Part shown: piece by piece, positions 1 through 10,805 of the stretch | Numbering within the stretch: position 1 is the first letter of the stretch | Layout of the letters: every line of letters starts with the position of its first letter | Origin: Blastococcus sp. CT_GayMR20 | GTDB taxonomy: Bacteria > Actinomycetota > Actinomycetes > Mycobacteriales > Geodermatophilaceae | Length of the DNA: 10,805 nucleotides | NCBI RefSeq assembly: GCF_004570345.1 | Contig: NZ_SPQM01000149.1 | Span: 1-10,805, forward strand | Reading direction: 5' to 3' | Notes under the pieces: generated by a model | Told to the model about the DNA's origin: nothing | The model's database searches: none | The model's input: only the letters and a program-made list of their open reading frames with translations | Program-made: the position numbers and the translations under genes

Positions 1-19
1 CGGCGGGGAGCCCGCCGGT

Positions 20-25
20 TAGGGT
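20..25 (+). promoter_or_regulatory. -10 box of small membrane protein gene
   Basis: TAGGGT fits the actinobacterial TANNNT -10 consensus and ends 6 nt before the GTG at 32. Transcription would begin at or next to the start codon, giving a leaderless mRNA. No clear -35 is visible, since the window begins too close. The same spacing recurs at several genes in this window, which strengthens the call. Confidence 0.5.
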
Positions 26-31
26 CGGCCC

Positions 32-235
32 GTGCTGCTCCTGATGGTCTGGATCGTCGCCGTCGTCCTGGCGCTGGTCGTCCTGGGCTCGATCGCCTAC
101 GGCCTCCTCGGGGCCGCCGGGCGGCTGCAGCGGGAGATGGCGGCCGCCGAGCGCGACGCCCGGCCGCTGCTGGCGCAGATCGAGGCCGCACAGGCCGCCG
201 CCGAGGCGCGTGGCGGGACAGCGAACGGCGACTGA
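32..235 (+). CDS. Small single-pass membrane protein, unknown function
   Basis: A 67-aa protein with a GTG start. Residues about 2-28 are strongly hydrophobic (MVWIVAVVLALVVLGSIAYG) and form one membrane segment. Residues about 30-60 are Ala/Glu/Arg-rich and look like a short coiled coil on the cytoplasmic side. There is no recognisable domain. The GTG at 32 is preferred because a -10 box ends 6 nt before it and no Shine-Dalgarno is present. The ATG at 44 is possible but would cut into the hydrophobic segment. It lies directly before tatA, in the slot between pafC and tatA if the mycobacterial order holds. A role with the Tat translocase is only a guess from position. Codon use and third-position GC support real coding. 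Confidence 0.65.
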   Translation: MLLLMVWIVAVVLALVVLGSIAYGLLGAAGRLQREMAAAERDARPLLAQIEAAQAAAEARGGTANGD

Positions 236-306
236 ACGCAGGCCGACATGTCGGTCGCCATCGCGACCCATCCGCGCGGACGGCGGGTTCCGAACACCCT
301 CCGGCG

Positions 307-312
307 TAGCAT
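307..312 (+). promoter_or_regulatory. Candidate -10 box of the tat operon
   Basis: TAGCAT lies in the 108-bp gap before tatA, 31 nt ahead of its ATG, leaving room for a short leader that holds the GGAGG ribosome binding site at 332-336. No convincing -35 lies 16-18 nt upstream. It is the best TANNNT match in the gap, but weak evidence alone. Confidence 0.35.
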
Positions 313-331
313 TCCGCACGACCCCACCTCT

Positions 332-336
332 GGAGG
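332..336 (+). promoter_or_regulatory. Ribosome binding site fixing the tatA start
   Basis: GGAGG sits 7 nt before the ATG at 344. It decides against the upstream in-frame ATG at 248, which has no Shine-Dalgarno and would add 32 residues not typical of TatA. Confidence 0.75.
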
Positions 337-343
337 ACCTGTC

Positions 344-697
344 ATGGGCGGACTCGGCCCGCTGGAGATCGGCCTGATCATCCTGGCGATCCTGTTGCTC
401 TTCGGCTACAAGAAGCTGCCGGATGCCTCCCGCTCGCTGGGCCGCTCGCTGCGCATCTTCAAGGGCGAGATGAAGGGCATGAAGGACGACGATGCCCGCG
501 ATGGGGTGCGCGCCAAGGACGCCGCACAGGCGACCCCCGTGCGCGGCGAGATCGTCGCGCCCGCGTCCCCTCCCACCACCACTGCCTCCGGCGACCTGAC
601 CGCGCAGCTGCACGAGGAGGCCCGGGTCGCCGAGGCGCGCGCCGCCGAGCTGCGCGCCCGCGCCGAGCAGACCCGCGTTACCGACGGCCCCCGCTGA
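344..697 (+). CDS. tatA: Sec-independent translocase pore subunit TatA
   Basis: TatA polymerises with TatC to move folded twin-arginine proteins across the membrane. The 117-aa product begins [10 protein letters not shown], the usual actinobacterial TatA N-terminus. It has one membrane helix at about 6-20, the hallmark Phe-Gly hinge (F20-G21), then the amphipathic helix with KKLPD and [13 protein letters not shown] (about 23-46). The acidic/charged stretch at 44-60 and a Pro/Thr-rich linker (64-82) lead to an Ala/Glu/Arg helix at 84-112 that may be a coiled coil. At 117 aa it is longer than many TatA proteins (about 70-95 aa), owing to this tail. tatC follows after 25 nt, so the two are probably co-transcribed. 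TatB is not in the window; in actinobacteria it is usually encoded elsewhere. Confidence 0.93.
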
Positions 698-722
698 CCC
701 ACCCGTTCCAGGCAGGACGACG

Positions 723-1622
723 GTGAGCGAGGGCGGCACCCGGCCCCGGTTGAAGCGGCGCAAGCCGCCGCGCGACGCCGAGGCGACGATGACGCTCATC
801 GCCCACCTCACCGAGCTGCGCAACCGGATCGCCAAGGCGCTCTTCTTCATCGCGCTCGGCACCGTCGTCGGGTTCATCTGGTACGACCGCGGCCTGCTGA
901 CGTTCCTCACCGAGCCGTACTGCGCCGTCCCCGACCGGCTGCGGCTCGACGGTGACGGCAACTGCCGGCTCGTTGTGCTCGACGTCTTCGGCGGCGTCCT
1001 GCTCCGGCTGAAGATCGCCCTGATCGCCGGCATCGGGCTGTCGGCGCCGTTCTGGCTGTACCAGATCTGGGCCTTCATCACGCCCGGCCTCAAGCGCAAC
1101 GAGAAGCGCTACACGGTCGGCTTCGTCGCCGCCTCCACCCTGCTGTTCGCCGGCGGCACCGTCCTCGCGTGGCTGACCCTGCGCAAGGGCCTCGAGCTGC
1201 TGCTGCGCCTCGCCGGTGACGAGGTCGCCTTCCAGCTCACCGCGCCGCTCTACCTGAGCTTCGTGATCAGCCTGCTCGTGGCGTTCGGCCTCTCGCTGGA
1301 GCTGCCGCTGATCGCGGTGGCGCTCAACCTCGTCGGCGTCCTGAGCTACGAGGCGCTGAAGAAGTCCCGGCGGTGGATCTTCTTCCTCACCATCGTCTTC
1401 GCCGCGTTCGTCACGCCCACCCAGGACCCGTTCACGATGCTGGCCATGGCCGGCCCGATGATCCTGCTCTTCGAGCTGGCCATCCAGCTGGCCCGTATCG
1501 TGGACAAGCGGCGGGCCAAGCGCGCCGCCTTGGAGCACTTCCACGACCTCGGCGACGACGAGGCCTCGCCGCTCGACGCCCGGCCGTCGTCCCTCGACGA
1601 CGCCCCGTCCCTGCGTCGCTGA
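723..1622 (+). CDS. tatC: Sec-independent translocase receptor TatC
   Basis: TatC is the multi-spanning membrane receptor that binds the twin-arginine signal peptide and recruits TatA. The 299-aa product has the conserved N-terminal HLTELRNRI (28-36) before the first helix. The loop FITPGLKRNEKR (118-129) carries the conserved Pro and Glu (E127) of the signal-peptide site. The motif FVTPTQDPF (229-237) corresponds to the conserved Pro-rich loop before the fifth helix. About six hydrophobic segments can be traced, at roughly 36-54, 88-117, 130-155, 172-200, 215-232 and 236-258. The charged C-terminal tail (259-299) is Asp/Arg-rich and cytoplasmic. The GTG start has a modest GGCAGGA ribosome binding site at 711-717. 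The kinase gene follows 8 nt after its stop, which suggests one operon. Confidence 0.95.
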   Translation: MSEGGTRPRLKRRKPPRDAEATMTLIAHLTELRNRIAKALFFIALGTVVGFIWYDRGLLTFLTEPYCAVPDRLRLDGDGNCRLVVLDVFGGVLLRLKIALIAGIGLSAPFWLYQIWAFITPGLKRNEKRYTVGFVAASTLLFAGGTVLAWLTLRKGLELLLRLAGDEVAFQLTAPLYLSFVISLLVAFGLSLELPLIAVALNLVGVLSYEALKKSRRWIFFLTIVFAAFVTPTQDPFTMLAMAGPMILLFELAIQLARIVDKRRAKRAALEHFHDLGDDEASPLDARPSSLDDAPSLRR

Positions 1623-1630
1623 GCGCGCAC

Positions 1631-2530
1631 GTGACCGGTTCCGGGGACGTCGCCGTCCTCGTCAGCCCGGCCGCGGGCCGCGGGCGCGCGGGCGTGCTGG
1701 CCACCGACGTGCTCGCCGCTTTCACCGCCGTCGGGCTCGAGGCCCGGCTGCTGCCGGCCACGACGGGCGCCGAGGCGGAGCGGCAGGCCGCCGACGCGGT
1801 CGCGCAGGGTGCGGCGGCCGTGGTCGCCGTGGGTGGCGACGGGACGGTGCACGCCGCGCTGCAGGCCGTCGCCGGGACGTCGACCCCACTGGCCGTCGTC
1901 CCCGCCGGGACCGGGAACGACCTGGTCCGGGCCCTGGGGATCCCGGACTCGCCGATCTCGGCGGCGCACGCGGCGGCCGAGGACCTGGCCGCCGGCACGG
2001 TGCAGATCGTCGACGCCGGCCGCACCGGCGACCGCTGGTGGTCGACGGTCCTCTGCTGCGGTTTCGACTCCGCCGTCAGCGACCGCGCCAACCGCCTCCG
2101 GTGGCCCCGCGGACGGCGGCGCTACGACGTGGCGGTCCTCGCCGAGCTGGCGCGCCTGCGGCCGCACGAGCTGACCCTCGTCCTGGACGGCGAGTCGCAG
2201 ACGCTGCCGGTCACGATGGTCGCCGTCGGCAACACGCCGTGGTACGGCGGCGGCATGAAGGTCTGCCCCGGCGCCGACCCGACCGACGGCCTGTTCGACG
2301 TCACCGTCGTCGGGGCCACCAGCCGCCTGGAGCTGATCCGCACCAAGCCGCGGCTCACCCTCGGCACCCACGTCGAGCACCCGATGGTCACCGTGCACCG
2401 TGCGGCCCGCGTGGAACTGATCTGCCCCGGGGTCACCACCTACGCCGACGGGGAGCCGGTGGCACCGCTCCCGGCGGTCGCCGAGTGCGTGCCCGGAGCA
2501 CTCAGGGTGGTCGGCAGCGGCAGAACCTGA
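1631..2530 (+). CDS. Diacylglycerol kinase / lipid kinase family protein
   Basis: A soluble DgkB/YegS-type lipid kinase of 299 aa, expected to phosphorylate diacylglycerol or a related lipid with ATP and so return it to phospholipid synthesis. The catalytic domain has the nucleotide-binding GGDGTV (68-73), the PAGTGND loop (91-97) and the C-terminal-lobe YADGEPV (271-277). The segment NTPWYGGGMKVCPGADPTDG (201-220) matches the glycine-rich and metal-site region of the family. The reading frame is open further upstream inside tatC. The GTG at 1631 is chosen because it follows the tatC stop by 8 nt and sits just before the first beta strand (VAVLVSP). Exact lipid substrate cannot be read from sequence; mycobacterial relatives use diacylglycerol. 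I do not recall this gene in the M. tuberculosis tat-helY block, so it may be an insertion relative to that order. Confidence 0.88.
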   Translation: MTGSGDVAVLVSPAAGRGRAGVLATDVLAAFTAVGLEARLLPATTGAEAERQAADAVAQGAAAVVAVGGDGTVHAALQAVAGTSTPLAVVPAGTGNDLVRALGIPDSPISAAHAAAEDLAAGTVQIVDAGRTGDRWWSTVLCCGFDSAVSDRANRLRWPRGRRRYDVAVLAELARLRPHELTLVLDGESQTLPVTMVAVGNTPWYGGGMKVCPGADPTDGLFDVTVVGATSRLELIRTKPRLTLGTHVEHPMVTVHRAARVELICPGVTTYADGEPVAPLPAVAECVPGALRVVGSGRT

Positions 2531-2574
2531 GGCCCGCGGCGATCGCGACCCCACTCGTCGCCGGGCAACGGTCC

Positions 2575-2580
2575 TACGAT
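2575..2580 (+). promoter_or_regulatory. -10 box of the 57-aa protein gene
   Basis: TACGAT ends 6 nt before the ATG at 2587 in the 56-bp gap after the lipid kinase gene, and no ribosome binding site lies between them. This implies a leaderless start and an independent promoter for the small gene. No -35 is recognised. Confidence 0.5.
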
Positions 2581-2586
2581 CCGGGC

Positions 2587-2760
2587 ATGTACGCGGTACA
2601 TCTCACCGACGCCGAGCTGGAGACGGCACGGCACGCCCTCCGGGCCTATCTCTCGGCCTTCGGTCACGACGAGGCCGAGACCGTGGGCGAGATCAGGCGC
2701 GTGATCGCCAAGCTGGACGCCGCCCAGACGGAGGACCGGGACCCGCGCATCTCCGCCTGA
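2587..2760 (+). CDS. Conserved small protein, unknown function (57 aa)
   Basis: The protein begins MYAVHLTDAELETARHALRA and continues through AYLSAFGHDEAETVGEIRRV. It looks wholly helical: an LTDAEL helix start, then two amphipathic helices joined at the GHDEAE turn, and a charged tail. There is no membrane segment or Cys. I recall similar short proteins next to helY-like genes in actinobacteria but know no function. The frame is open far upstream through the kinase gene; the ATG at 2587 is chosen because a TACGAT -10 box ends 6 nt before it and codon bias turns normal there. A regulatory or helicase-associated role would be inference from position alone. Confidence 0.7.
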   Translation: MYAVHLTDAELETARHALRAYLSAFGHDEAETVGEIRRVIAKLDAAQTEDRDPRISA

Positions 2761-2813
2761 TCCCGCGCGGTGACGCGCGAGGACCGGCCCGAGCCGTTTC
2801 CCTGGAGCGCGCC

Positions 2814-2819
2814 TAACGT
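2814..2819 (+). promoter_or_regulatory. -10 box of helY
   Basis: TAACGT ends 6 nt before the helY ATG at 2826, so the transcript would begin at the A of the start codon. A GGAGG at 2820-2824 is only 1 nt from the ATG, too close to act as a normal Shine-Dalgarno, which favours leaderless translation. No -35 is recognised. Confidence 0.55.
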
Positions 2820-2825
2820 GGAGGC

Positions 2826-5672
2826 ATGTCCAGCCCCGCTGAGCGGTACGCCGCTGCGCGGCGGCGGACCGCCCACCCGACCCTGGCGGACTTCACCGCC
2901 GACCTCGGCTTCTCCCTGGACCCCTTCCAGGTCGAGGCGTGCGAGGCCCTCGAGGAGGGCTCGGGCGTCCTCGTCTGCGCGCCGACCGGCGCGGGCAAGA
3001 CCGTCGTCGGTGAGTTCGCCGTCCACAAGGCGCTGGCGGAGGGGCGCAAGGCGTTCTACACGACGCCGATCAAGGCGCTGTCCAACCAGAAGTACGCCGA
3101 CCTGGTCGAGCGCTACGGGCCGACGCAGGTGGGCCTGCTGACCGGGGACAACGCGATCAACGGCGACGCGCCCGTGGTGGTGATGACGACCGAGGTGCTG
3201 CGCAACATGCTCTACGCGGAGTCGCCCGCCATCGCCGGCCTCGGCTACGTGGTCATGGACGAGGTGCACTACCTCGCCGACCGGTTCCGCGGTGCGGTGT
3301 GGGAGGAGGTGATCATCCACCTCCCGCAGTCGGTCACGCTCGTCTCGCTGTCGGCGACGGTGAGCAACGCCGAGGAGTTCGGCGACTGGCTGGTCACGGT
3401 GCGCGGGCACACGAAGGTCGTCGTCAGCGAGGTCCGGCCGGTCCCGCTCTGGCAGCACATGCTGGTGGGCAACCGCGTGTTCGACCTGTTCTCGCTGCGG
3501 CCGGCCGCGCACGCGGGGGAGCAGGGGCTCACCCCGCGCGAGCAGTCCACCCGGGAACGCGGCGCCTCGGTCGTCGACCCGGAGCTGGTGCGCTACGTCC
3601 GCGAGCACGAGCGACGGATCGACTCCTGGCACGGCGGCGGTCCCGGTTCCCGGCGGGGCGACACCTCGCACCGGCCCCGCTACCGGGCGCCGTCCCGGTC
3701 CGACGTCATCACCCGGCTGGACAACGCCGGGCTGCTGCCGGCGATCACCTTCGTCTTCAGCCGCAACGGCTGCGACGCCGCGGTCCACCAGTGCCTGCTG
3801 TCCGGTCTGCGGCTCACCGACGAGGCGGAGCGCGCGGAGATCGCCGAGATCATCGACCGCCGCACCGGCTCCCTGCCGGAGGAGGACCTGCACGTCCTCG
3901 GCTTCTGGGAATGGCGGGAAGGCCTGCTCGCCGGGCTCGCTGCCCACCACGCCGGGCTGGTGCCGGCGTTCAAGGAGACCGTCGAGGAGTGCTTCGTCCG
4001 CGGCCTGGTGAAGGCGGTGTTCGCCACGGAGACCCTCGCGCTGGGCATCAACATGCCTGCCCGCAGCGTCGTCCTCGAGCGGCTGGTCAAGTGGAACGGC
4101 GAGGCGCACGTCGACGTGACGCCGGGGGAGTACACCCAGCTCACCGGCCGGGCCGGCCGCCGGGGCATCGACGTCGAGGGGCACGCCGTGGTCGTCTGGG
4201 GGCCCGGGGTCGACCCGGCGACCGTCGCGGGCCTGGCCAGCACCCGCACGTACCCGCTGCGGTCGTCGTTCCGGCCGAGCTACAACATGGCGGTCAACCT
4301 GGTCAGCTCGTTCGGCCGGGCCCGCGCCCGCGAGCTTCTGGCGTCGTCGTTCGCGCAGTTCCAGGCCGACCGGTCCGTCGTCGGACTGGCCCGGGCGGCC
4401 GCGAAGCACGAGCAGGACGCCGAGCGGGCCGCGGCCGAGATGCACTCCGACCGCGGGGACGTCGGCGCGTACGCCGAGCTCCGGCGGGAGATCGCCGACC
4501 GGGAGAAGGACCTGTCCCGCGACTCGCAGGCCAAGCGGCGCATCGAGGCCGCGGAGGCCCTGGCTGCCCTGCGGCCCGGTGACGTCATCCGGGTGCCGTC
4601 CGGACGGCGCCAGGGGCTGGCCGTCGTCCTCGACCCGGGGATCACCGACCTCGCCGACCCCCGGCCCCTGGTGCTGACCGAGGACAAGTGGGCCGGCCGG
4701 CTCGCGTCGATCGACTTCCCGACGCCGGTGAACGCGCTCGCGCGGGTCCGGGTGCCCAAGAACTTCAACCACCGCAGCCCGCATGCCCGCCGCGACCTCG
4801 CCGCCACCCTGCGGAACGCCCGCGTCGAGAACGACCTGGGTGCCCGCCGGGTCAAGCACCGGTCGGCGGCGGCGGACGACCCGGTGCTGGCCGACCTGCG
4901 CCAGGCCCTGCGCAACCACCCCGTGCACCAGTTGCCGGACCGCGAGGAGCGGGTGCGGGTCGCCGAGCGGTGGCTGCGGGCAGTCCGCGAGGCCGACGCG
5001 CTGCAGCGCAAGATGACCGAGCGCACGGGCTCGCTGACCCGGCAGTTCGACGCCACCTGCGACGTCCTCGAGGAGCTCGGCTACCTCGTGCCCGAGGTGG
5101 CGCCCCTGGTGCCGGCCGACACGGAGGTCATGGGCGCGGTGGACGACGTCCCGGTCGTCACCGACGACGGACGGCGGCTGTCGCGCATCTGGTCGGAGGC
5201 GGACCTCCTGGTCGCCGAGTGCCTGCGGGCCGGCGCGTGGCGGGGACTGAACCCGGCCGAGCTGGCGGCGGCGACGTCCACGGCCGTGTTCGAGGCGCGA
5301 CGGGACAACCCGGCCCTGCCGGCCGTGCCGGCCGGGAAGGTGGCGGCGGCCATCGGCGAGATGCGCCGGATCCGAGCCCGGCTGCACGACGTCGAGGCCG
5401 ACCACGGCGTGCGAGTGACCCGCGACCTCGATCTCGGCTTCGCCTGGGCCGCCTACCGCTGGGCGGACGGACAGAGCCTCGACCGGGTGCTGGCGGGCGC
5501 CGAGCAGGCCGGCACCGAGCTGTCCGGCGGCGACTTCGTGCGCTGGGCCCGGCAGCTGATCGACCTGCTGGACCAGCTGGCCAAGGTGGCGGAGGAGCCG
5601 GTGGCCGGCGTCGCCCGGGCCGCCGTCGGAAAGATCCGGCGGGGTGTCGTCGCGGTCGCGGTCGGCGGTTGA
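2826..5672 (+). CDS. helY: Ski2/Mtr4-like DEAD/DEAH-box RNA helicase HelY
   Basis: A superfamily 2 ATP-dependent helicase of 948 aa, expected to unwind structured RNA, as related Ski2/Mtr4 enzymes do for exonucleolytic decay. Visible motifs are a Q-motif-like LDPFQVEA (31-38), Walker A APTGAGKT (52-59), TTPIKALSNQ (79-88), Walker B DEVH (145-148), motif III SAT (176-178), FSRNGCD (311-317), HHAGLVP (374-380), ATETLALGINMPAR (400-413) and motif VI QLTGRAGRRG (438-447). A basic, Gly/Arg-rich linker (about 225-292) separates the two RecA lobes. The last 170 or so residues, from about 775, match the helical DSHCT domain of this family, including LDLGFAWAAYRWADG. The length is close to mycobacterial HelY (about 900 aa). 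The gene has its own leaderless promoter and is not obviously co-transcribed with the next gene 94 bp on. Confidence 0.93.
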   Translation: MSSPAERYAAARRRTAHPTLADFTADLGFSLDPFQVEACEALEEGSGVLVCAPTGAGKTVVGEFAVHKALAEGRKAFYTTPIKALSNQKYADLVERYGPTQVGLLTGDNAINGDAPVVVMTTEVLRNMLYAESPAIAGLGYVVMDEVHYLADRFRGAVWEEVIIHLPQSVTLVSLSATVSNAEEFGDWLVTVRGHTKVVVSEVRPVPLWQHMLVGNRVFDLFSLRPAAHAGEQGLTPREQSTRERGASVVDPELVRYVREHERRIDSWHGGGPGSRRGDTSHRPRYRAPSRSDVITRLDNAGLLPAITFVFSRNGCDAAVHQCLLSGLRLTDEAERAEIAEIIDRRTGSLPEEDLHVLGFWEWREGLLAGLAAHHAGLVPAFKETVEECFVRGLVKAVFATETLALGINMPARSVVLERLVKWNGEAHVDVTPGEYTQLTGRAGRRGIDVEGHAVVVWGPGVDPATVAGLASTRTYPLRSSFRPSYNMAVNLVSSFGRARARELLASSFAQFQADRSVVGLARAAAKHEQDAERAAAEMHSDRGDVGAYAELRREIADREKDLSRDSQAKRRIEAAEALAALRPGDVIRVPSGRRQGLAVVLDPGITDLADPRPLVLTEDKWAGRLASIDFPTPVNALARVRVPKNFNHRSPHARRDLAATLRNARVENDLGARRVKHRSAAADDPVLADLRQALRNHPVHQLPDREERVRVAERWLRAVREADALQRKMTERTGSLTRQFDATCDVLEELGYLVPEVAPLVPADTEVMGAVDDVPVVTDDGRRLSRIWSEADLLVAECLRAGAWRGLNPAELAAATSTAVFEARRDNPALPAVPAGKVAAAIGEMRRIRARLHDVEADHGVRVTRDLDLGFAWAAYRWADGQSLDRVLAGAEQAGTELSGGDFVRWARQLIDLLDQLAKVAEEPVAGVARAAVGKIRRGVVAVAVGG

Positions 5673-5766
5673 CCTGCGCTGCGCCACCCTCCGCGGCGGG
5701 CCTCGGTAGGGCACAATTCCTCCGCCCGCGACCGGCGTCGCGGGAAGGCCGGACCGGGGAGCGACG

Positions 5767-6357
5767 ATGACCAACCCGCCGCAGGGCGACGAGCCGGGCG
5801 CAGATCAGGACCGGAACCCGACCCAGCCGACGCCCTCGGTCGAGCCCCAGCGGGCGCCGTGGCAGGGGCCGACCCCGCCCTACGTCCAGCCGGCCCAGCA
5901 GCCGTACCAGCCCTACGTCCAGCAGCCCCCGCAGTACGCGCAGCCGCCCTACGGCCAACCGCCCTACGGCGCGGCGCCAGAGCCCCAGTACGGGCAGCCG
6001 CAGTACGGGCAGCCGCAGTACGGCCAACCGCCCTACGGTCAGCCGACCCCGAAGTCCAAGGTCGGCCTGATCGCCGCGATCACCGGCATCACCCTGCTCG
6101 TTCTCGCGGGCGTCGTCGTCCTGGTGCTGTCCCTGCAGTCGACGGTGCTCGACCGGGCGGCCGTCGAGCGCGACGTCGCCGCGCAGTTCGAGGAGCGCGA
6201 GGGCGTCGCCATCGAGCTCAGCTGCCCGGGCGACATGGCAGTGGAGTCGGGTTCCTCCTACGAGTGCACCGGCACGACGGCCGACGGCGAGGACGTCACG
6301 CTGCAGATCCGCATCGAGGACGAGGACTCCGCGGCCTACACCTGGACGGAGCCCTGA
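5767..6357 (+). CDS. Pro/Gln-rich membrane-anchored DUF4333 protein
   Basis: A 196-aa protein in three parts. Residues 1-97 are a disordered, Pro/Gln/Tyr-rich cytoplasmic arm with tandem [10 protein letters not shown] repeats (61-93). Residues 99-123 form one membrane helix. Residues 126-196 form an extracytoplasmic domain with the DUF4333 pattern: [14 protein letters not shown], a first cysteine in ELSCPGDM, a second in [13 protein letters not shown], and a C-terminal AYTW. The two cysteines, C153 and C167, would suit a disulfide outside the membrane. The function of DUF4333 is unknown to me. A GGGGAG ribosome binding site lies about 7 nt before the ATG. The slot after helY and before the inverted exonuclease matches M. 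tuberculosis Rv2091c, also annotated as a membrane protein. It ends convergently 9 bp from the exonuclease gene. Confidence 0.85.
5986..6045 (+). repeat. 15-bp tandem repeats coding [10 protein letters not shown]
   Basis: Four consecutive 15-bp units are present. The first two are identical (CAGTACGGGCAGCCG), the third differs at two positions, and the fourth replaces CAG with CCC and has one synonymous change. A further related unit lies at 5947-5961. All keep the reading frame, so unit gain or loss would lengthen or shorten the disordered arm without a frameshift. Near identity of adjacent units suggests recent slippage. Confidence 0.85.
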
Positions 6358-6371
6358 GCCGACCGGTCAGG
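6353..6371. terminator. Weak hairpin at the convergent gene junction
   Basis: CCTGA and TCAGG form a 5-bp stem with a 9-nt loop, built from the two facing stop codons of the DUF4333 and exonuclease genes. It could serve both strands as a terminator, but the stem is short and no T-run follows. Part of the symmetry is a trivial result of two TGA codons facing each other. Confidence 0.2.
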
Positions 6372-7296
6372 CCACCGCGTCGGCCGGCCAGCCCAGGGCG
6401 GCGCCCAGCCGCTTGAGCGAGCTCTCCAGCCCGTGCGCGGTCGCCAGGGCCGCCAGGGCCGCCGGGTCGGCGGGGGTGCGGGGGAGGGCGCCTTCGATCG
6501 GGGGCAGGTCGATCTCCTTCGCGACCGCCACGACCACCGGTGCGGCGTCGAGGTAGTTCGCCGCGGCGTGGATCTTCTTCAGGACGGCGGCCGTCAGCGG
6601 CGGCCTGGGGACGACGGTCCGCTGCACCGCCGAGCGGATCCCGGCCAGGTCCCCGAACTCGTTGATCAACGCCGCCGCGGTCTTCGCGCCCACGCCCGCG
6701 ACGCCCGGCAGACCGTCGCTCGGATCGCCCCGGAGGACGGCGAAGTCGGCGTAGGCCCGGCCCGGGATGCCGTACTTGGCGGTGACGACCGCCTCGTCGA
6801 CCAGCTCGATGTCGCCGATGCCGCGGGCCGTGTACAGCACCCGGATGCCGCGGGCATCGTCCACGAGCTGGAACAGGTCCCGGTCACCGGTGACCACGTC
6901 GACCGGCCGGTCGGCGCGGGTGGCGAGTGTGCCGATGATGTCGTCGGCCTCGTAACCCGGCGCACCGACCCGGTCGATGCCGGCCGCGGCCAGCACGTCG
7001 ACCAGGATCGGCACCTGCGGGCTCAGATCGTCCGGCACGACCTCCTCGCTGCCGTCGGGCGCGAGTCGGTGGGCCTTGTACGAGGGCAGCGCCTCGACGC
7101 GGAAGGCGGGCCGCCAGTCGTCGTCCCAGCAGGCGACCAGCCGGTCGGGCGCGTGAGCGGTCAGCAGCCGGGCGGTCATGTCCAGGAACCCGCGCACGGC
7201 GTTGATGGGTCGCCCGTCCGGCGTCGTGATGCTGGTCGGCACCCCGTAGAAGGCCCGGAAGTAGAGGCTGGCCGCGTCCAGCAGCATGGTCGTCAC
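6367..7296 (-). CDS. 5'-3' exonuclease, PolI-N/FEN-like
   Basis: A stand-alone 5' nuclease of 309 aa, related to the N-terminal domain of DNA polymerase I and to FEN enzymes; expected to remove 5' flaps or RNA primers. Metal-binding acids fall in the expected places: D7 in LLDAAS, D59-D60 region in CWDDDWRP, EADD (117-120), GDRD (137-140) and DPSDGLPG (191-198). A helix-3-turn-helix DNA-binding segment follows (GVAGVGAKTAAALI). SYKAHR (72-77) is the conserved basic motif of the family. Sequence and inverted orientation match M. tuberculosis Rv2090, as I remember it. The GTG at 7296 is chosen; an ATG at 7287 (starting MLLD) is possible. It is divergent from the M24 peptidase gene, with 67 bp between the two starts holding both promoters. 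Confidence 0.92.
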   Translation of the reverse strand: MTTMLLDAASLYFRAFYGVPTSITTPDGRPINAVRGFLDMTARLLTAHAPDRLVACWDDDWRPAFRVEALPSYKAHRLAPDGSEEVVPDDLSPQVPILVDVLAAAGIDRVGAPGYEADDIIGTLATRADRPVDVVTGDRDLFQLVDDARGIRVLYTARGIGDIELVDEAVVTAKYGIPGRAYADFAVLRGDPSDGLPGVAGVGAKTAAALINEFGDLAGIRSAVQRTVVPRPPLTAAVLKKIHAAANYLDAAPVVVAVAKEIDLPPIEGALPRTPADPAALAALATAHGLESSLKRLGAALGWPADAVA

Positions 7297-7304
7297 GTTG
7301 GCGG

Positions 7305-7310
7305 ACGGTA
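7305..7310 (-). promoter_or_regulatory. -10 box of exonuclease gene
   Basis: On the minus strand TACCGT ends 8 nt before the GTG at 7296, consistent with a leaderless or nearly leaderless transcript. No Shine-Dalgarno is seen ahead of the start. Confidence 0.4.
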
Positions 7311-7351
7311 GCGGTCTGGAAACGATTCCGGAGAACGGCGTCCTCGCTGGT

Positions 7352-7357
7352 TAGTCT
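7352..7357 (+). promoter_or_regulatory. -10 box of M24 peptidase gene
   Basis: TAGTCT ends 6 nt before the GTG at 7364, so the predicted transcript starts on the start codon. The overlapping GTG at 7362 is in another frame. The shared 67-bp divergent region must also hold the exonuclease promoter on the other strand. Confidence 0.5.
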
Positions 7358-7363
7358 GCGCGT

Positions 7364-8512
7364 GTGGCTCCCGCGATCTCTCCGAGCAGCCCCCTCGTGA
7401 CGATCGACCGCGTGCACGCCGCCCGGGAGATCGCCGCGGAGAACGGCGTCGACCTCCTCGTCCTCACCCCCGGGTCGGACCTGCGGTACCTGGCGGGCTA
7501 CGACGCCCACGCCATGGAGCGGCTGACCGCCCTCGCCGTCCCGCGCACGGGCGAGCCGTTCCTCGTCGTGCCGCGGCTCGAGGCCCCGATGGTCGACGCG
7601 AGCCCGGCCGGCACGCTGGGCCTCGAGCTCCTCGCCTGGGACGAGACGGACGACGCCTTCGCCCTGCTGGCGTCGGCCGCGACCGCCCGGCTGGGCTCGG
7701 CCCCCGCCCGGGTCGCCGTCGGCGCCCGGACCTGGGCCGAGCACGCGCTCGGGGTGCAGCGCGCGCTGCCGGGGTCGGCGCTGGGGCTCGCGAGCCCGGT
7801 CGTCGACCGGCTGCGGATGGTGAAGTCGCCCGCGGAGATCGAGGAGCTCGCGCTGGCCGGCGCCGCGATCGACCGGGTGCACGCGAACATGGACGTCTGG
7901 CTGACGGTCGGTCGCACCGAGGCGCAGGTCGGCGCCGACATCGCCGCGGCGATCATCGCCGAGGGGCACACCGGCGTCGACTTCACGATCGTCGGCTCCG
8001 GCCCGAACGGCGCCAGCCCGCACCACGAGCTCTCCGACCGGGTCGTGCAGGCCGGTGACCTCGTCGTCGTCGACATCGGCGGTGAGACGGCGACCGGCTA
8101 CCGGTCGGACTGCACCCGCACCTACGTCGTCGGTGGAGGGCCCAGCGCCGAGGTGGCCGAGTGGTATGCGGTCCTGCAGGCGGCCCAGGCGGCGTCGACG
8201 GCCGCCGTCCGGCCCGGAGTGACGGCGGAGCAGATCGACGCGGCGGCGCGGGACGTGATCGAGGACGCCGGCTGGGGCAAGCACTTCATCCACCGCACCG
8301 GCCACGGCATCGGGCTGGACACCCACGAGGCGCCCTACATCGTGGCCGGCAACGACATCCCTCTCGTGCCGGGCATGGCGTTCTCCGTGGAGCCCGGCAT
8401 CTACCTGGCGGGCGACTGCGGTGCCCGCATCGAGGACATCGTCGTCTGCACCGAGGACGGCGTCCGCACGCTCAATGACGGTCCCCGTGAGCTCGTCGAA
8501 CTCCCCGGCTGA
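7364..8512 (+). CDS. M24 family Xaa-Pro aminopeptidase/dipeptidase (PepE/PepQ-like)
   Basis: A cytoplasmic metallopeptidase of 382 aa that should cleave peptide bonds next to proline. The creatinase-like N-terminal domain spans about 12-150 and the pita-bread catalytic domain about 155-375. All five expected metal ligands are visible: D237 in VVVDIGG, D249 in RSDCTRTY, H314 in RTGHGIG, E343 in FSVEPGIY and E357 in ARIEDIVV. A further catalytic-type His lies in DTHEAP (H321). The gene follows the divergent exonuclease exactly as pepE (Rv2089c) does in M. tuberculosis, so PepE is the likely ortholog; substrate preference (dipeptide or longer) is not decided by sequence. The Lrp-type gene overlaps its 3' end, suggesting translational coupling. 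Confidence 0.92.
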   Translation: MAPAISPSSPLVTIDRVHAAREIAAENGVDLLVLTPGSDLRYLAGYDAHAMERLTALAVPRTGEPFLVVPRLEAPMVDASPAGTLGLELLAWDETDDAFALLASAATARLGSAPARVAVGARTWAEHALGVQRALPGSALGLASPVVDRLRMVKSPAEIEELALAGAAIDRVHANMDVWLTVGRTEAQVGADIAAAIIAEGHTGVDFTIVGSGPNGASPHHELSDRVVQAGDLVVVDIGGETATGYRSDCTRTYVVGGGPSAEVAEWYAVLQAAQAASTAAVRPGVTAEQIDAAARDVIEDAGWGKHFIHRTGHGIGLDTHEAPYIVAGNDIPLVPGMAFSVEPGIYLAGDCGARIEDIVVCTEDGVRTLNDGPRELVELPG

Positions 8513-8972
8513 GCCCGGCGCCGGGGCCGTGCCCCCGGTCGACGTCGACCGCGAGCTGCTCGCCGCCCTGGCCAGGGACGGCCGGGCCAGCTACACCGAC
8601 CTCGCCGAGCGGGTGGGGCTGTCGGTGTCGGCGGTGCACCAGCGGGTGCGCCGCCTGGAGCAGCGGGGCCTGATCACCGGCTACCACGCGACGGTCGACG
8701 CCAAGGCGCTCGGGCTGCCGCTGACGGCGTTCGTCTCGATCACGCCGATCGACGTCGCCCAGCCCGACGACGCCCCGGCGCGGCTGGCGCACCTGTCGGC
8801 CATCGAGGCGTGCCACTCGGTCGCGGGGATGGAGAGCTACATCCTCAAGGTGCGCGTCGCCTCACCGGACGCCCTCGAGGGACTGCTGCAGGACATCCGC
8901 GCCGCGGCGAACGTCACGACGCGGACGACGGTCGTGCTGTCGACGTTCTACGAGGACCGCCCGCCGCTCTGA
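8487..8972 (+). CDS. Lrp/AsnC family transcriptional regulator
   Basis: A 161-aa regulator of the leucine-responsive family. It has an N-terminal winged helix-turn-helix, with the helices at about 36-57 (YTDLAERVGLSVSAVHQRVRRLEQRGLI). The C-terminal AsnC ligand/oligomer domain covers about 79-154 and includes the effector-site region SVAGMESYILKVRV. Such proteins bind an amino acid or similar effector and control metabolism or transport genes. The start is uncertain. The GTG at 8487 overlaps the peptidase gene by 26 bp; ATG 8475 would overlap more, and GTG 8529 would start just before the conserved VDVDRELL and remove the overlap. None has a good ribosome binding site. Coupling to a proline peptidase suggests amino-acid sensing, but the target is unknown. 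Confidence 0.88.
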   Translation: MSSSNSPAEPGAGAVPPVDVDRELLAALARDGRASYTDLAERVGLSVSAVHQRVRRLEQRGLITGYHATVDAKALGLPLTAFVSITPIDVAQPDDAPARLAHLSAIEACHSVAGMESYILKVRVASPDALEGLLQDIRAAANVTTRTTVVLSTFYEDRPPL

Positions 8973-8980
8973 GCCGGCGC

Positions 8981-8986
8981 TACCGT
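8981..8986 (+). promoter_or_regulatory. -10 box of the Ddn-like gene
   Basis: TACCGT ends 6 nt before the GTG at 8993, in the 20-bp gap after the Lrp gene. It supports a leaderless start there rather than the nearby out-of-frame ATG at 8989. Confidence 0.5.
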
Positions 8987-8992
8987 CGATGC

Positions 8993-9439
8993 GTGGCCGG
9001 TCCCTGGATCACGAACCGGGTCGCCGACCCGGTGCTGGCGCCGCTGCTGCGCGGCGCCGCCGGTCGGTGGCTCGGCCGGCGCCTGCTGCTGATGCGCTAC
9101 CACGGCCGACGCACCGGTCGGCCGCACGAGGTGGTCGTCCAGTACGCGCGGTCCGGGCCGACCGTGTGGGCGATCGTCGGGCGCGCCGAGCGCACGACCT
9201 GGTGGCACAACCTCCAGGCCCCGGCGGAGGTGGACGTGTGGCTGGCCGGGGAGCGGTTCCGTGCCCGCGCCGTCGCCGTGGTGGGTGCGGACCAGCCGGC
9301 CGAGGCCCTCCGCGGCCTCCTCGCGTACCTGGCGCAGCGGCCTCTGGCCGCTCGCGCGCCGGGCTCCGTCGAGGATGCGGTCACCCGCGTCGTGCTCCTG
9401 CGGGTCGACCTGCAGGCGGAGCCGGACGAGGCCGCCTGA
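8993..9439 (+). CDS. Deazaflavin (F420)-dependent nitroreductase/quinone reductase, Ddn family
   Basis: A small split-barrel protein of 148 aa resembling the actinobacterial Ddn/DUF385 family, which use reduced coenzyme F420 to reduce quinones or nitro compounds. Family features are the basic loop YHGRRTGRPHEVVVQ (36-50), which contacts the cofactor phosphate, the strand VWAIVGRAE (58-66), the WWHNL motif (70-74) and the barrel strand EVDVWLAGERFRARA (79-93). The N-terminal helix, VADPVLAPLLRG, is typical of members that sit near the membrane. The GTG at 8993 has a -10 box 6 nt upstream. Natural substrate cannot be predicted. It implies that the host makes F420, as most actinobacteria do. Confidence 0.82.
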   Translation: MAGPWITNRVADPVLAPLLRGAAGRWLGRRLLLMRYHGRRTGRPHEVVVQYARSGPTVWAIVGRAERTTWWHNLQAPAEVDVWLAGERFRARAVAVVGADQPAEALRGLLAYLAQRPLAARAPGSVEDAVTRVVLLRVDLQAEPDEAA

Positions 9440-9444
9440 CGGAC

Positions 9445-9473
9445 TGGACATCCGTTCGAACGTGTGTTCGCAT
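9445..9473 (+). promoter_or_regulatory. Candidate promoter of radical SAM gene (-35 TGGACA, -10 TCGCAT)
   Basis: TGGACA (9445-9450) and TCGCAT (9468-9473) are separated by 17 nt, and the -10 ends 6 nt before the ATG at 9480, the same leaderless spacing as neighbours. The -10 lacks the usual A at its second position, so the promoter should be weak. The LexA box lies inside it. Confidence 0.45.
9457..9470 (+). promoter_or_regulatory. LexA SOS box
   Basis: CGAACGTGTGTTCG matches the CGAAC-RNRY-GTTCG operator of Gram-positive and actinobacterial LexA at every position; the flanking T at 9456 extends it to TCGAAC. It sits between the proposed -35 and -10 and overlaps the latter by 3 nt, and ends 9 nt before the ATG. 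LexA binding here should block transcription until DNA damage triggers RecA-dependent LexA cleavage. Confidence 0.88.
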
Positions 9474-9479
9474 GGAGTC

Positions 9480-10619
9480 ATGCGATGGGACGCGCAGCGG
9501 CTGGACCGGGAGGAGCCGTCGACACTGCCCGGCATGCCGAGCATCCGTGGCCTGCTCCGGAGCGTCCAGGTGCCCGACTTCCCGGGTCTGACGTTCCACG
9601 AGGTGCGGGCCAAGAGCGCGCTCAACCACGTGCCCGGCGAATCCGCGATGCCGTTCCCGTGGACGATCAATCCATTCCGTGGATGCAGTCATGCGTGCGC
9701 CTACTGCTTCGCGAGACGAACCCATGAATGGCTCGAATTCGACTCCGGGGAGGACTTCAACAGCCAGATCGTCGTCAAGACGAACCTGGTCGACGTGCTG
9801 CGTCGCGAGCTGGCCCGACCGTCCTGGACGCAGGAACACGTCGCGCTCGGCACGAACACCGATCCCTACCAGCGCGCCGAGGGCCGCTACCGTCTGATGC
9901 CCGGCGTCATCGGCGCCTTGGCCGAGTCGGGAACGCCGTTTTCCATCCTGACGAAAGGCACCCTGCTCCGCAGGGACATTCCCCTGCTGGTCGAGGCTGC
10001 CCGAGAGGTCCCCATCGGGCTGGGGGTCTCCATGGCGATCTGGGACGACGACCTGCATGCCGCCCTCGAGCCGGGCGTGCCGACCCCCCGTGCGCGGCTC
10101 GACCTCGTCGCGGCCCTCACCGATGCGGGACTGCCGTGCGGCGTGTTCCTCGCCCCGGTCCTGCCCGGGCTGACCGACGACACCGCCTCGCTCGACGCGG
10201 CGTTGGGAGCGATCGCCGCGTCCGGCGCCAGCGGTGTCACGGTCATCCCGCTGCACCTGCGGCCGGGCGCCCGCGAATGGTTCATGGCCTGGCTGCGCCG
10301 GGCGCACCCCGAACTGGTCGCGCGCTACGAGCGGATGTACGCCCGTCGGGCGTACGTGCCCGCCGAGTACCGCACCTGGTTGCAGCAGCAGGTGGCACCG
10401 CTGCTGCGGGAACACGGCCTCGACCGGCAGTCGGGAGGTACGGCTCGCGGCGCGTCGGACCCCGTCGCCGCGGGCGTGCCAGGTGACGCGGAGGTCGGCT
10501 TCCCGGAGGGCAGCCTGCCGACGGGCGGCATGCCGGGTGTGCGTCCGAAGGGCGAGATGGTGGCCACGACGACGGCGAGCGCTATCGGCCCCGAGACGGA
10601 GCAGCTGTCCCTGATCTGA
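9480..10619 (+). CDS. Rv2578c family radical SAM protein, SOS-regulated, with putative clamp-binding tail
   Basis: A radical S-adenosylmethionine protein of 379 aa, related to the SPL (spore photoproduct lyase)-like group and recognisable as the Rv2578c family by its MRWD start, FHEVRAKSALNHVP, ALGTNTDPYQRAEGRYRLMPG and LTKGTLLRRD blocks. The [4Fe-4S] cluster is held by C69, C73 and C76 in RGCSHACAYCFAR. A barrel domain continues to about 265, then a helical part (EWFMAWLRRAHPELVARYERMYARR) to about 313. Residues about 316-370 are Gly/Pro/Ala-rich and probably disordered. The last residues are EQLSLI, like a beta-clamp-binding motif. The substrate is unknown; DNA repair is inferred from the SOS box, the SPL-like fold and the tail. 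Codons around the Cys motif are unusually A/T-ending. The ATG at 9480 is the only sensible start. Confidence 0.92.
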   Translation: MRWDAQRLDREEPSTLPGMPSIRGLLRSVQVPDFPGLTFHEVRAKSALNHVPGESAMPFPWTINPFRGCSHACAYCFARRTHEWLEFDSGEDFNSQIVVKTNLVDVLRRELARPSWTQEHVALGTNTDPYQRAEGRYRLMPGVIGALAESGTPFSILTKGTLLRRDIPLLVEAAREVPIGLGVSMAIWDDDLHAALEPGVPTPRARLDLVAALTDAGLPCGVFLAPVLPGLTDDTASLDAALGAIAASGASGVTVIPLHLRPGAREWFMAWLRRAHPELVARYERMYARRAYVPAEYRTWLQQQVAPLLREHGLDRQSGGTARGASDPVAAGVPGDAEVGFPEGSLPTGGMPGVRPKGEMVATTTASAIGPETEQLSLI

Positions 10620-10640
10620 CTGACCTCCGGAGGCCCAGTC
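10618..10640 (+). terminator. Imperfect hairpin after radical SAM gene
   Basis: GACTG (10618-10622) pairs with CAGTC (10636-10640), and within it CCT/AGG pair around a CCGG tetraloop, with a small internal loop. It begins inside the stop codon and has no T-run. It could end the radical SAM transcript before the promoter of the next gene. Confidence 0.3.
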
Positions 10641-10651
10641 GCGGCCCGAAA

Positions 10652-10674
10652 GTGTCGTACCCCTTCCGTAGATT
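10652..10674 (+). promoter_or_regulatory. RecA-NDp-like (PafBC-dependent) damage promoter
   Basis: GTGTCGTACCC, a 6-nt spacer and TAGATT resemble the LexA-independent DNA-damage promoter remembered as TTGTCAGTGGC-N6-TAGGGT, activated by PafBC. The TGTCR core, the final C, the 11+6 spacing and the TAG---T all fit; the GTGG part does not. The -10 ends 7 nt before the GTG at 10682, implying a leaderless transcript. Confidence 0.55.
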
Positions 10675-10681
10675 CGCGCAT

Positions 10682-10805
10682 GTGTTCGAGGGATACGGCG
10701 TCGACCTGGCGATCGCTCCGTTCGGTGGCGTCGAGGTGCCGGGTCCGGCGGAGGGGCGGCCGTCTCGGCTGGCCGAGATCTTCCCGGCGGGGGTGCGGTC
10801 GGAGG
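10682..10805 (+). CDS. N-terminus of probable DUF222/HNH endonuclease-like (13E12 family) protein, cut by window end
   Basis: Only the first 41 codons are present. The frame starting at GTG 10682 reads VFEGYGVDLAIAPFGG and then a Pro-rich stretch and RPSRLAEIFPAGVRSE. It has strong third-position GC, unlike the overlapping ATG frame at 10680. Short N-termini of this type (initial FE, an APFGG stretch, then a SRLAEIFP-like segment) recall DUF222-containing HNH endonuclease proteins, abundant in Geodermatophilaceae and related to the mycobacterial 13E12 repeat proteins, but the DUF222 and HNH domains themselves would lie beyond the window. The RecA-NDp-like promoter supports this, since 13E12 genes are reported as damage-inducible. 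Identity remains tentative. Confidence 0.5.
   Translation, partial: MFEGYGVDLAIAPFGGVEVPGPAEGRPSRLAEIFPAGVRSE

Follow-up and report, generated by a model that had tools for sequence, protein, structure and literature searches.

A putative sliding-clamp-binding tail on an Rv2578c-family radical SAM protein of Blastococcus with an upstream LexA box

The window analysed here, the whole 10,805-nucleotide stretch of Blastococcus sp. CT_GayMR20 (NCBI RefSeq assembly GCF_004570345.1, contig NZ_SPQM01000149.1, positions 1 to 10,805), carries a gene for a radical S-adenosylmethionine (SAM) protein of the Rv2578c family, whose last five residues, QLSLI, resemble the peptides of ligands of the replication clamp DnaN (beta-clamp). 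We consider it likely that the gene encodes an SOS-induced enzyme that acts on DNA and is tethered to the clamp, and binding of the QLSLI tail to DnaN, as judged from sequence, is very probable. The first-pass annotation of this DNA had proposed such a tether, and its interpretation is supported at the sequence level, because the ends of the relatives are related to one another and conservation of the motif far exceeds that of the linker ahead of it. The features concerned are:

9480 to 10619, plus strand: coding sequence of the Rv2578c-family radical SAM protein, with ATG at 9480, 379 amino acids, stop codon included in the coordinates.
10602 to 10616, plus strand: C-terminal QLSLI, putative beta-clamp-binding motif.
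10440 to 10601, plus strand: linker of residues 321-374, predicted to be disordered.
10500 to 10520, plus strand: FPEGSLP, a short segment inside the linker that is conserved in part of the family.

As the first-pass annotation had stated, QLSLI forms the very end of the protein, the codons CAG CTG TCC CTG ATC at 10602-10616 being followed directly by TGA at 10617-10619. It is likewise a near match to QL[S/D]LF, with I replacing F; this is the consensus of beta-clamp ligands given in two papers (PMC9690074, PMC3716654), and such peptides are usually C-terminal. The protein itself is a member of the Rv2578c family (NF038135; 519.3 bits, E 3.1e-156, cut-off 430) and matches 317/317 positions of the family model, which spans residues 1-315 only and leaves tail and motif outside. 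It belongs neither to the PA0069 family (NF033668; 201.2 bits versus a cut-off of 360) nor to the intein-containing Rv2578c family (NF038136; 545.9 bits versus a cut-off of 700).

Conservation of the tail was assessed in 126 closed open reading frames (ORFs), here called group A, which comprise 80 named loci (the best 80 of 366 relatives, only seven of them individually scored against NF038135) and 46 loci above the cut-off from a survey of 396 genomes sampled within the phylum to which a Blastococcus genome belongs. In this survey, 45 genomes had a protein above the curated cut-off for Rv2578c and 19 had one above that for PA0069; 30 loci plus 100 further stretches were taken from it, truncated or weakest matches being left out. 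All family counts rest on related, non-independent sequences, and group A holds some outright redundancy (L089 repeats L001, and L117 and L118, from two genomes, have an identical C-terminus). L139, the frame of which runs off its contig, was omitted from the shuffle and wider-pattern counts. The best 80 relatives, which include Blastococcus, Modestobacter, Nakamurella, Leifsonia, Georgenia, Planotetraspora, Microbispora, Streptomyces and others, end mostly in QLTLL, QLSLL, QLSLC, QLSLI, QLTLI or QLALL, with QLALF, QPTLF and other ends also present. Comparison of the C-termini, as proposed in the first-pass annotation, revealed that the relatives do not end in unrelated sequences: an exact QxxL[FLIM] end was found in 96/126 group A ORFs, whereas 200 shuffles of the last 40 residues gave 0.095 on average, and a penta- or hexapeptide form lay within the last eight residues in 100/126, compared with 0.36 by shuffling. 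Under a wider pattern, 114 of the 126 contain a pentapeptide in the last eight residues and three a hexapeptide or internal form, five have a hydrophobic end only, and four fit none of these. Among 267 ORFs neighbouring the named loci, the penta- or hexapeptide form occurred in none within the last eight residues and in two within the last 40; on the strength of the shuffles and these neighbours, a chance match was rejected as the origin of QLSLI. In the best 120 Blastococcus-type and the best 120 Mycobacterium-type relatives, taken from about 8000 scored hits each in a large protein collection, the motif was found within the last eight residues in 116 and 112 proteins, respectively. The codons of 106 motif-matching genes vary synonymously at Gln (CAG 88, CAA 18) and at the second Leu (CTG 64, CTC 25, TTG 13, CTT 4), suggesting that the protein is what is kept and disfavouring a DNA element conserved where the gene ends.

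The window protein was furthermore aligned by MAFFT with 48 of 56 dereplicated loci (<75% mutual identity). Left out were L056 (misplaced start, ending in QDALF), the broken gene L198 and the remote loci L200, L201, L202, L207, L208 and L210, of which L207 ends in QTSLF and the other five are without the motif. The ends were placed together by MAFFT unaided, and the motif Gln and Leu were retained in 46/49 and 47/49 sequences. After Y287, the last nearly invariant residue of the core, the next nearly invariant residues are Q375 and L378 of the motif. Mean pairwise identity is 90% for the Gln and Leu of the motif, and the last five residues together reach 53%; the core (residues 57-290) stands at 54% and the linker at 9%, which confirms that the motif is conserved better than the linker. 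The first-pass description of a disordered-looking Gly/Pro/Ala-rich stretch of about 55 residues was also accurate, as about 54 such residues (321-374) precede QLSLI and the predicted local distance difference test score (pLDDT) of the AlphaFold model is below 50 over residues 322-371. Clamp motifs are often located on flexible tails, and the motif of the window protein is carried by such a segment. Linker length was counted from the alignment, in which the column spacing from Y287 to Q375 ranges from 42 to 90 residues; pattern-based lengths are distorted by inteins (maximum 603). The FPEGSLP pattern occurs in 54/126 group A proteins and in 118/120 of the closest, Blastococcus-type relatives, with Nakamurella and a few others carrying it too, and in 0/120 Mycobacterium-type and 0/120 PA0069-type relatives. 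This segment may be a second binding motif.

The first-pass annotation is too narrow in scope, as the same kind of putative clamp-binding tail is found in the PA0069 family, the radical SAM core of which is related and the C-terminus of which is of the QLSLF or QPSLF(D) type. In the same protein collection, the motif was present within the last eight residues in 119 of the best 120 PA0069 proteins of Paracoccus type, and in group D (18 loci, PA0069-like except for the broken L198) a pentapeptide was present there in 17/18. L198 is a family gene apparently split between frames; it is numbered in group D although it looks like a defective member of another group. From 110 listed hits, 19 named plasmid or phage records were hand-picked to span taxa rather than drawn at random, and 10 of them bear the motif: six PA0069-type proteins of Pseudomonadota (Paracoccus QLSLF, Sinorhizobium QLSLL, Azospirillum QLTMF, Aeromonas QLRLF, Methylobacterium QYSLF and Sphingomonas QGELF), Gemmatirosa (QLSLGI), and the actinobacteria Tsukamurella (QESLF), Arthrobacter (QEPLF) and Nonomuraea (QLRLL). 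L204-L207, which form a remote radical SAM group, end in QASLF, QTSLF or QGSLF and are possibly a third clamp-tailed group. Two further relatives, L220 and L221, from Nostoc and Haladaptatus, adjoin genes for the three-Cys-motif partner protein TcmP.

A second line of evidence comes from the region upstream of the gene, where the LexA box named in the first-pass annotation is indeed present:

9456 to 9471, plus strand: LexA (SOS) box TCGAACGTGTGTTCGC, 24 bases before the start codon.

Read by eye, the box has 11/12 matches to TCGAAC-N4-GTTCGA, and it lies near the start codon, as in a LexA regulon. Upstream regions scoring 11-12 of 12 against this consensus numbered 103/184, where 0.04 were expected from mononucleotide shuffles, and the core GAAC-N4-GTTC was present in 142/183 versus 0.4 expected (group A 107/124, group B, a sister group described below, 34/49, group C 0/1, group D 1/6, namely L198, and group E 0/3); many Streptomyces genes are preceded by GGGAACA-type variants of the box. 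By these boxes, the putative LexA link holds for most of the Rv2578c family, and the enzyme is probably switched on by DNA damage. Proteobacterial genes of the PA0069 family resemble the window gene in this respect too, since LexA-type boxes of the kind of the respective class were detected at 6/6 proteobacterial PA0069-type loci, compared with 0.06 loci expected, with the start of the match serving as start codon in three of the six. These are GTTC-N7-GTTC in five Alphaproteobacteria and CTGT-N8-ACAG in Aeromonas, which we take to be the LexA box types of those classes.

Published work, as far as the available portions of the papers go, points in the same direction. In Streptomyces venezuelae, LexA binds at the radical SAM gene vnz_31145, possibly a member of the Rv2578c family, which is induced 20-fold by mitomycin C (PMC9380542); SplB-like genes were predicted in SOS networks of Alpha- and Betaproteobacteria (PMC3323433); for Bacteroidetes, their SOS membership was inferred, and SOS regulation is stated for several species (PMC8565304); and a RecA-dependent list from Mycobacterium tuberculosis includes a DNA repair photolyase that is not named further (PMC8151990). 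Because SplB-like genes had thus been placed in SOS networks already, their SOS control was known before, and the clamp tail appears to be new: among the literature matches listed, which cover few subscription journals, we found nothing on this motif that links the clamp with radical SAM or SplB proteins.

The catalytic part of the protein comprises two features:

9531 to 10439, plus strand: folded radical SAM core, residues 18-320, the high-confidence part of the AlphaFold model.
9684 to 9707, plus strand: CxxxCxxC iron-sulfur motif, Cys69, Cys73 and Cys76, invariant in 49/49 aligned sequences.

The PF04055 match covers residues 63-235, and the cluster motif is uninterrupted. A sequence search of the PDB with the window protein gave no useful relative (best E 0.058). 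When the predicted model was compared with solved structures, six entries of spore photoproduct lyase (SPL; 4fhe, 4fhf and related entries) topped both Foldseek and VIA-align, suggesting a shared radical SAM fold of the SPL type. However, identity to SPL is 14% and the family has no conserved cysteine outside the cluster motif. The hydrogen donor of SPL is Cys140 of the solved enzyme, at a set spacing beyond the cluster. In the window protein there is no cysteine between Cys76 and Cys220; Cys220 is present in 27/49 aligned sequences, and the only invariant cysteines are the three of the cluster. Since the hydrogen-donor cysteine is without a conserved counterpart, the classical spore photoproduct reaction is probably not the chemistry of this enzyme, and the candidate of a true SPL was rejected despite the predicted SPL fold. 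Two side observations concern this part of the family. At the N-terminus, MRW (9480-9488) is kept in 118/126 group A proteins, with starts chosen by script, and residues 1-17 are predicted to be disordered. Many relatives apparently contain an intein directly ahead of Cys76, the third cysteine of the cluster, as their matches begin at residue 76 or show large insertions (L027-L041, L043-L051, L053 and L071; PA0069-type L188, L193-L197 and L199); the intein domain PF14890 is found on some homologous proteins, NF038136 is the NCBI model of the intein form, and the window copy is without an intein.

Besides the QL[S/D]LF consensus, a general form QLxLxL is known among clamp ligands, and both kinds of peptide are seen in the family: group B, a sister group at about 370-430 bits to NF038135, has a pentapeptide in 40/52 members, the remaining 12 carrying a hexapeptide or an internal form (QLSLDL, QMSLDL and QLALDL, for example). 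The peptide QLVLGL of Pol IV, a structurally studied clamp ligand, is of the QLxLxL-like kind as well (PMC3716654, in part). Two known DNA-damage proteins can be compared, again from the available portions of the sources. EndoMS/NucS, a repair nuclease found in Streptomyces and its relatives, resembles the window protein, a putative repair enzyme that is likewise actinobacterial, in carrying its clamp motif at the C-terminus, and the activity of NucS is enhanced by the clamp (PMC11109965); it differs in being a nuclease of an unrelated family with a KLRLF-type motif that has no Gln, and in 7/7 genomes checked NucS ends in RLF without Gln five residues from the end. In the mycobacterial mutasome, ImuB is a DNA-damage-response protein whose foci with the clamp depend on a clamp motif, QLPLWG (PMC10421592), whereas it is an inactive Y-family polymerase and its motif is internal. 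As a positive control, 15 loci for Y-family polymerases gave a mixed picture: a Q-x-x-L-type match at most 130 residues from the ORF end was present in nine and in none of the other six. The DnaN encoded in a Blastococcus genome has a match of 437.8 bits to PDB chain 5ah2 (DNA polymerase III subunit beta), so that modelling of a complex is practical.

Several observations weigh against an SOS-induced, clamp-tethered enzyme acting on DNA. The last residue of the window motif is I, where the consensus has F; 11 group A proteins end in QLxLC (10 from Modestobacter and one from another member of the Geodermatophilaceae); and one Blastococcus protein ends in QLSLG. The Gln is missing at its place in five group A proteins with a hydrophobic end (in L102 it lies one residue later), and the four group A proteins outside all patterns read QLSLG, QLSFL, QLSIP and QLTLT. 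Because NucS, whose clamp dependence is published, has no Gln there, the few members without it may, by analogy, still bind the clamp. The motif is moreover absent from 9/19 of the picked records, all remote relatives (Runella, Paenibacillus, Nostoc, three haloarchaea by eye, Parabacteroides mobile pair B, Monoglobus and a phage), and remote group E has it in 4/11 members and is without it in 7/11. On the regulatory side, GAAC-N4-GTTC is missing upstream of 17/124 group A genes, 15/49 group B genes and, L198 aside, 5/5 testable actinobacterial PA0069 genes. Lastly, DNA is a putative substrate, read from fold, regulation and annotation. We lean slightly towards DNA lesion chemistry; that the tail binds the clamp and the enzyme has another substrate, modifying a replisome protein, RNA or a nucleotide at the fork, is an unlikely alternative.

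Other roles for the tail itself fare worse. A degradation signal that clears the SOS protein after repair would suit a motif with a hydrophobic end that mostly lies at the extreme C-terminus, but we regard it as improbable: the Gln is nearly invariant despite its position five residues from the end, and a free-end signal would not be expected to have 1 to 20 residues trailing it, as in some relatives, or to exchange a pentapeptide for a hexapeptide. A clamp ligand tolerates such trailing residues, and to us nothing else in the sequences favours the clamp over a free-end signal as strongly as the alternation of the two forms; the internal and hexapeptide forms thus disfavour a free-end degron. 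Binding of the tail to another partner, RecA or a further SOS protein, with only incidental resemblance to clamp ligands, is similarly improbable; operons that join SplB-like and ImuB-C domain genes in some bacteria (PMC3765255, in part) would fit it, whereas the residue pattern, alternative forms included, is that of clamp ligands. A tail folding back as a lid over its own active site, for which the pLDDT of 55 in the last residue block versus 37-41 in the linker blocks might speak, is the least probable, given the variable distance from Y287 to the Gln and an end without predicted secondary structure.

Under the preferred reading of a clamp-tethered, SOS-induced enzyme, LexA would repress the gene through the box just upstream, and after damage a compact domain with the predicted SPL-like fold would be made, followed by the disordered tether of about 54 residues that ends in QLSLI. 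The terminal Gln and the Leu and hydrophobic residues would dock in the hydrophobic cleft of DnaN, as the conserved motif suggests, keeping the enzyme at the forks or gaps that serve as sites of clamp loading. There, the [4Fe-4S]/SAM centre of the enzyme would generate a 5'-deoxyadenosyl radical, by which a damaged base would be reversed or modified.

The remainder of the window (248-9436) yielded Pfam matches to a TatA-like protein, TatC, a DEAD/DSHCT helicase, a DUF4333 protein, a minus-strand 5'-3' exonuclease, an M24 peptidase, an AsnC-type regulator and an F420H2-dependent quinone reductase-like protein.

SplB-like radical SAM genes are recurrent in the SOS regulons of several phyla. If the reading is true, the clamp-binding tail would put the enzyme at the replisome and supply a concrete partner, the time and place of its action would become predictable from the tail, and the target of repair by these proteins would become a directly testable question. 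Radical SAM enzymes would then join the clients of the sliding clamp. We speculate, more tentatively and at somewhat less than even confidence, that the Rv2578c and PA0069 families of Actinomycetota and Pseudomonadota may together represent an unrecognised SOS-induced, clamp-tethered form of direct-reversal repair that employs non-SPL radical chemistry at forks or gaps.
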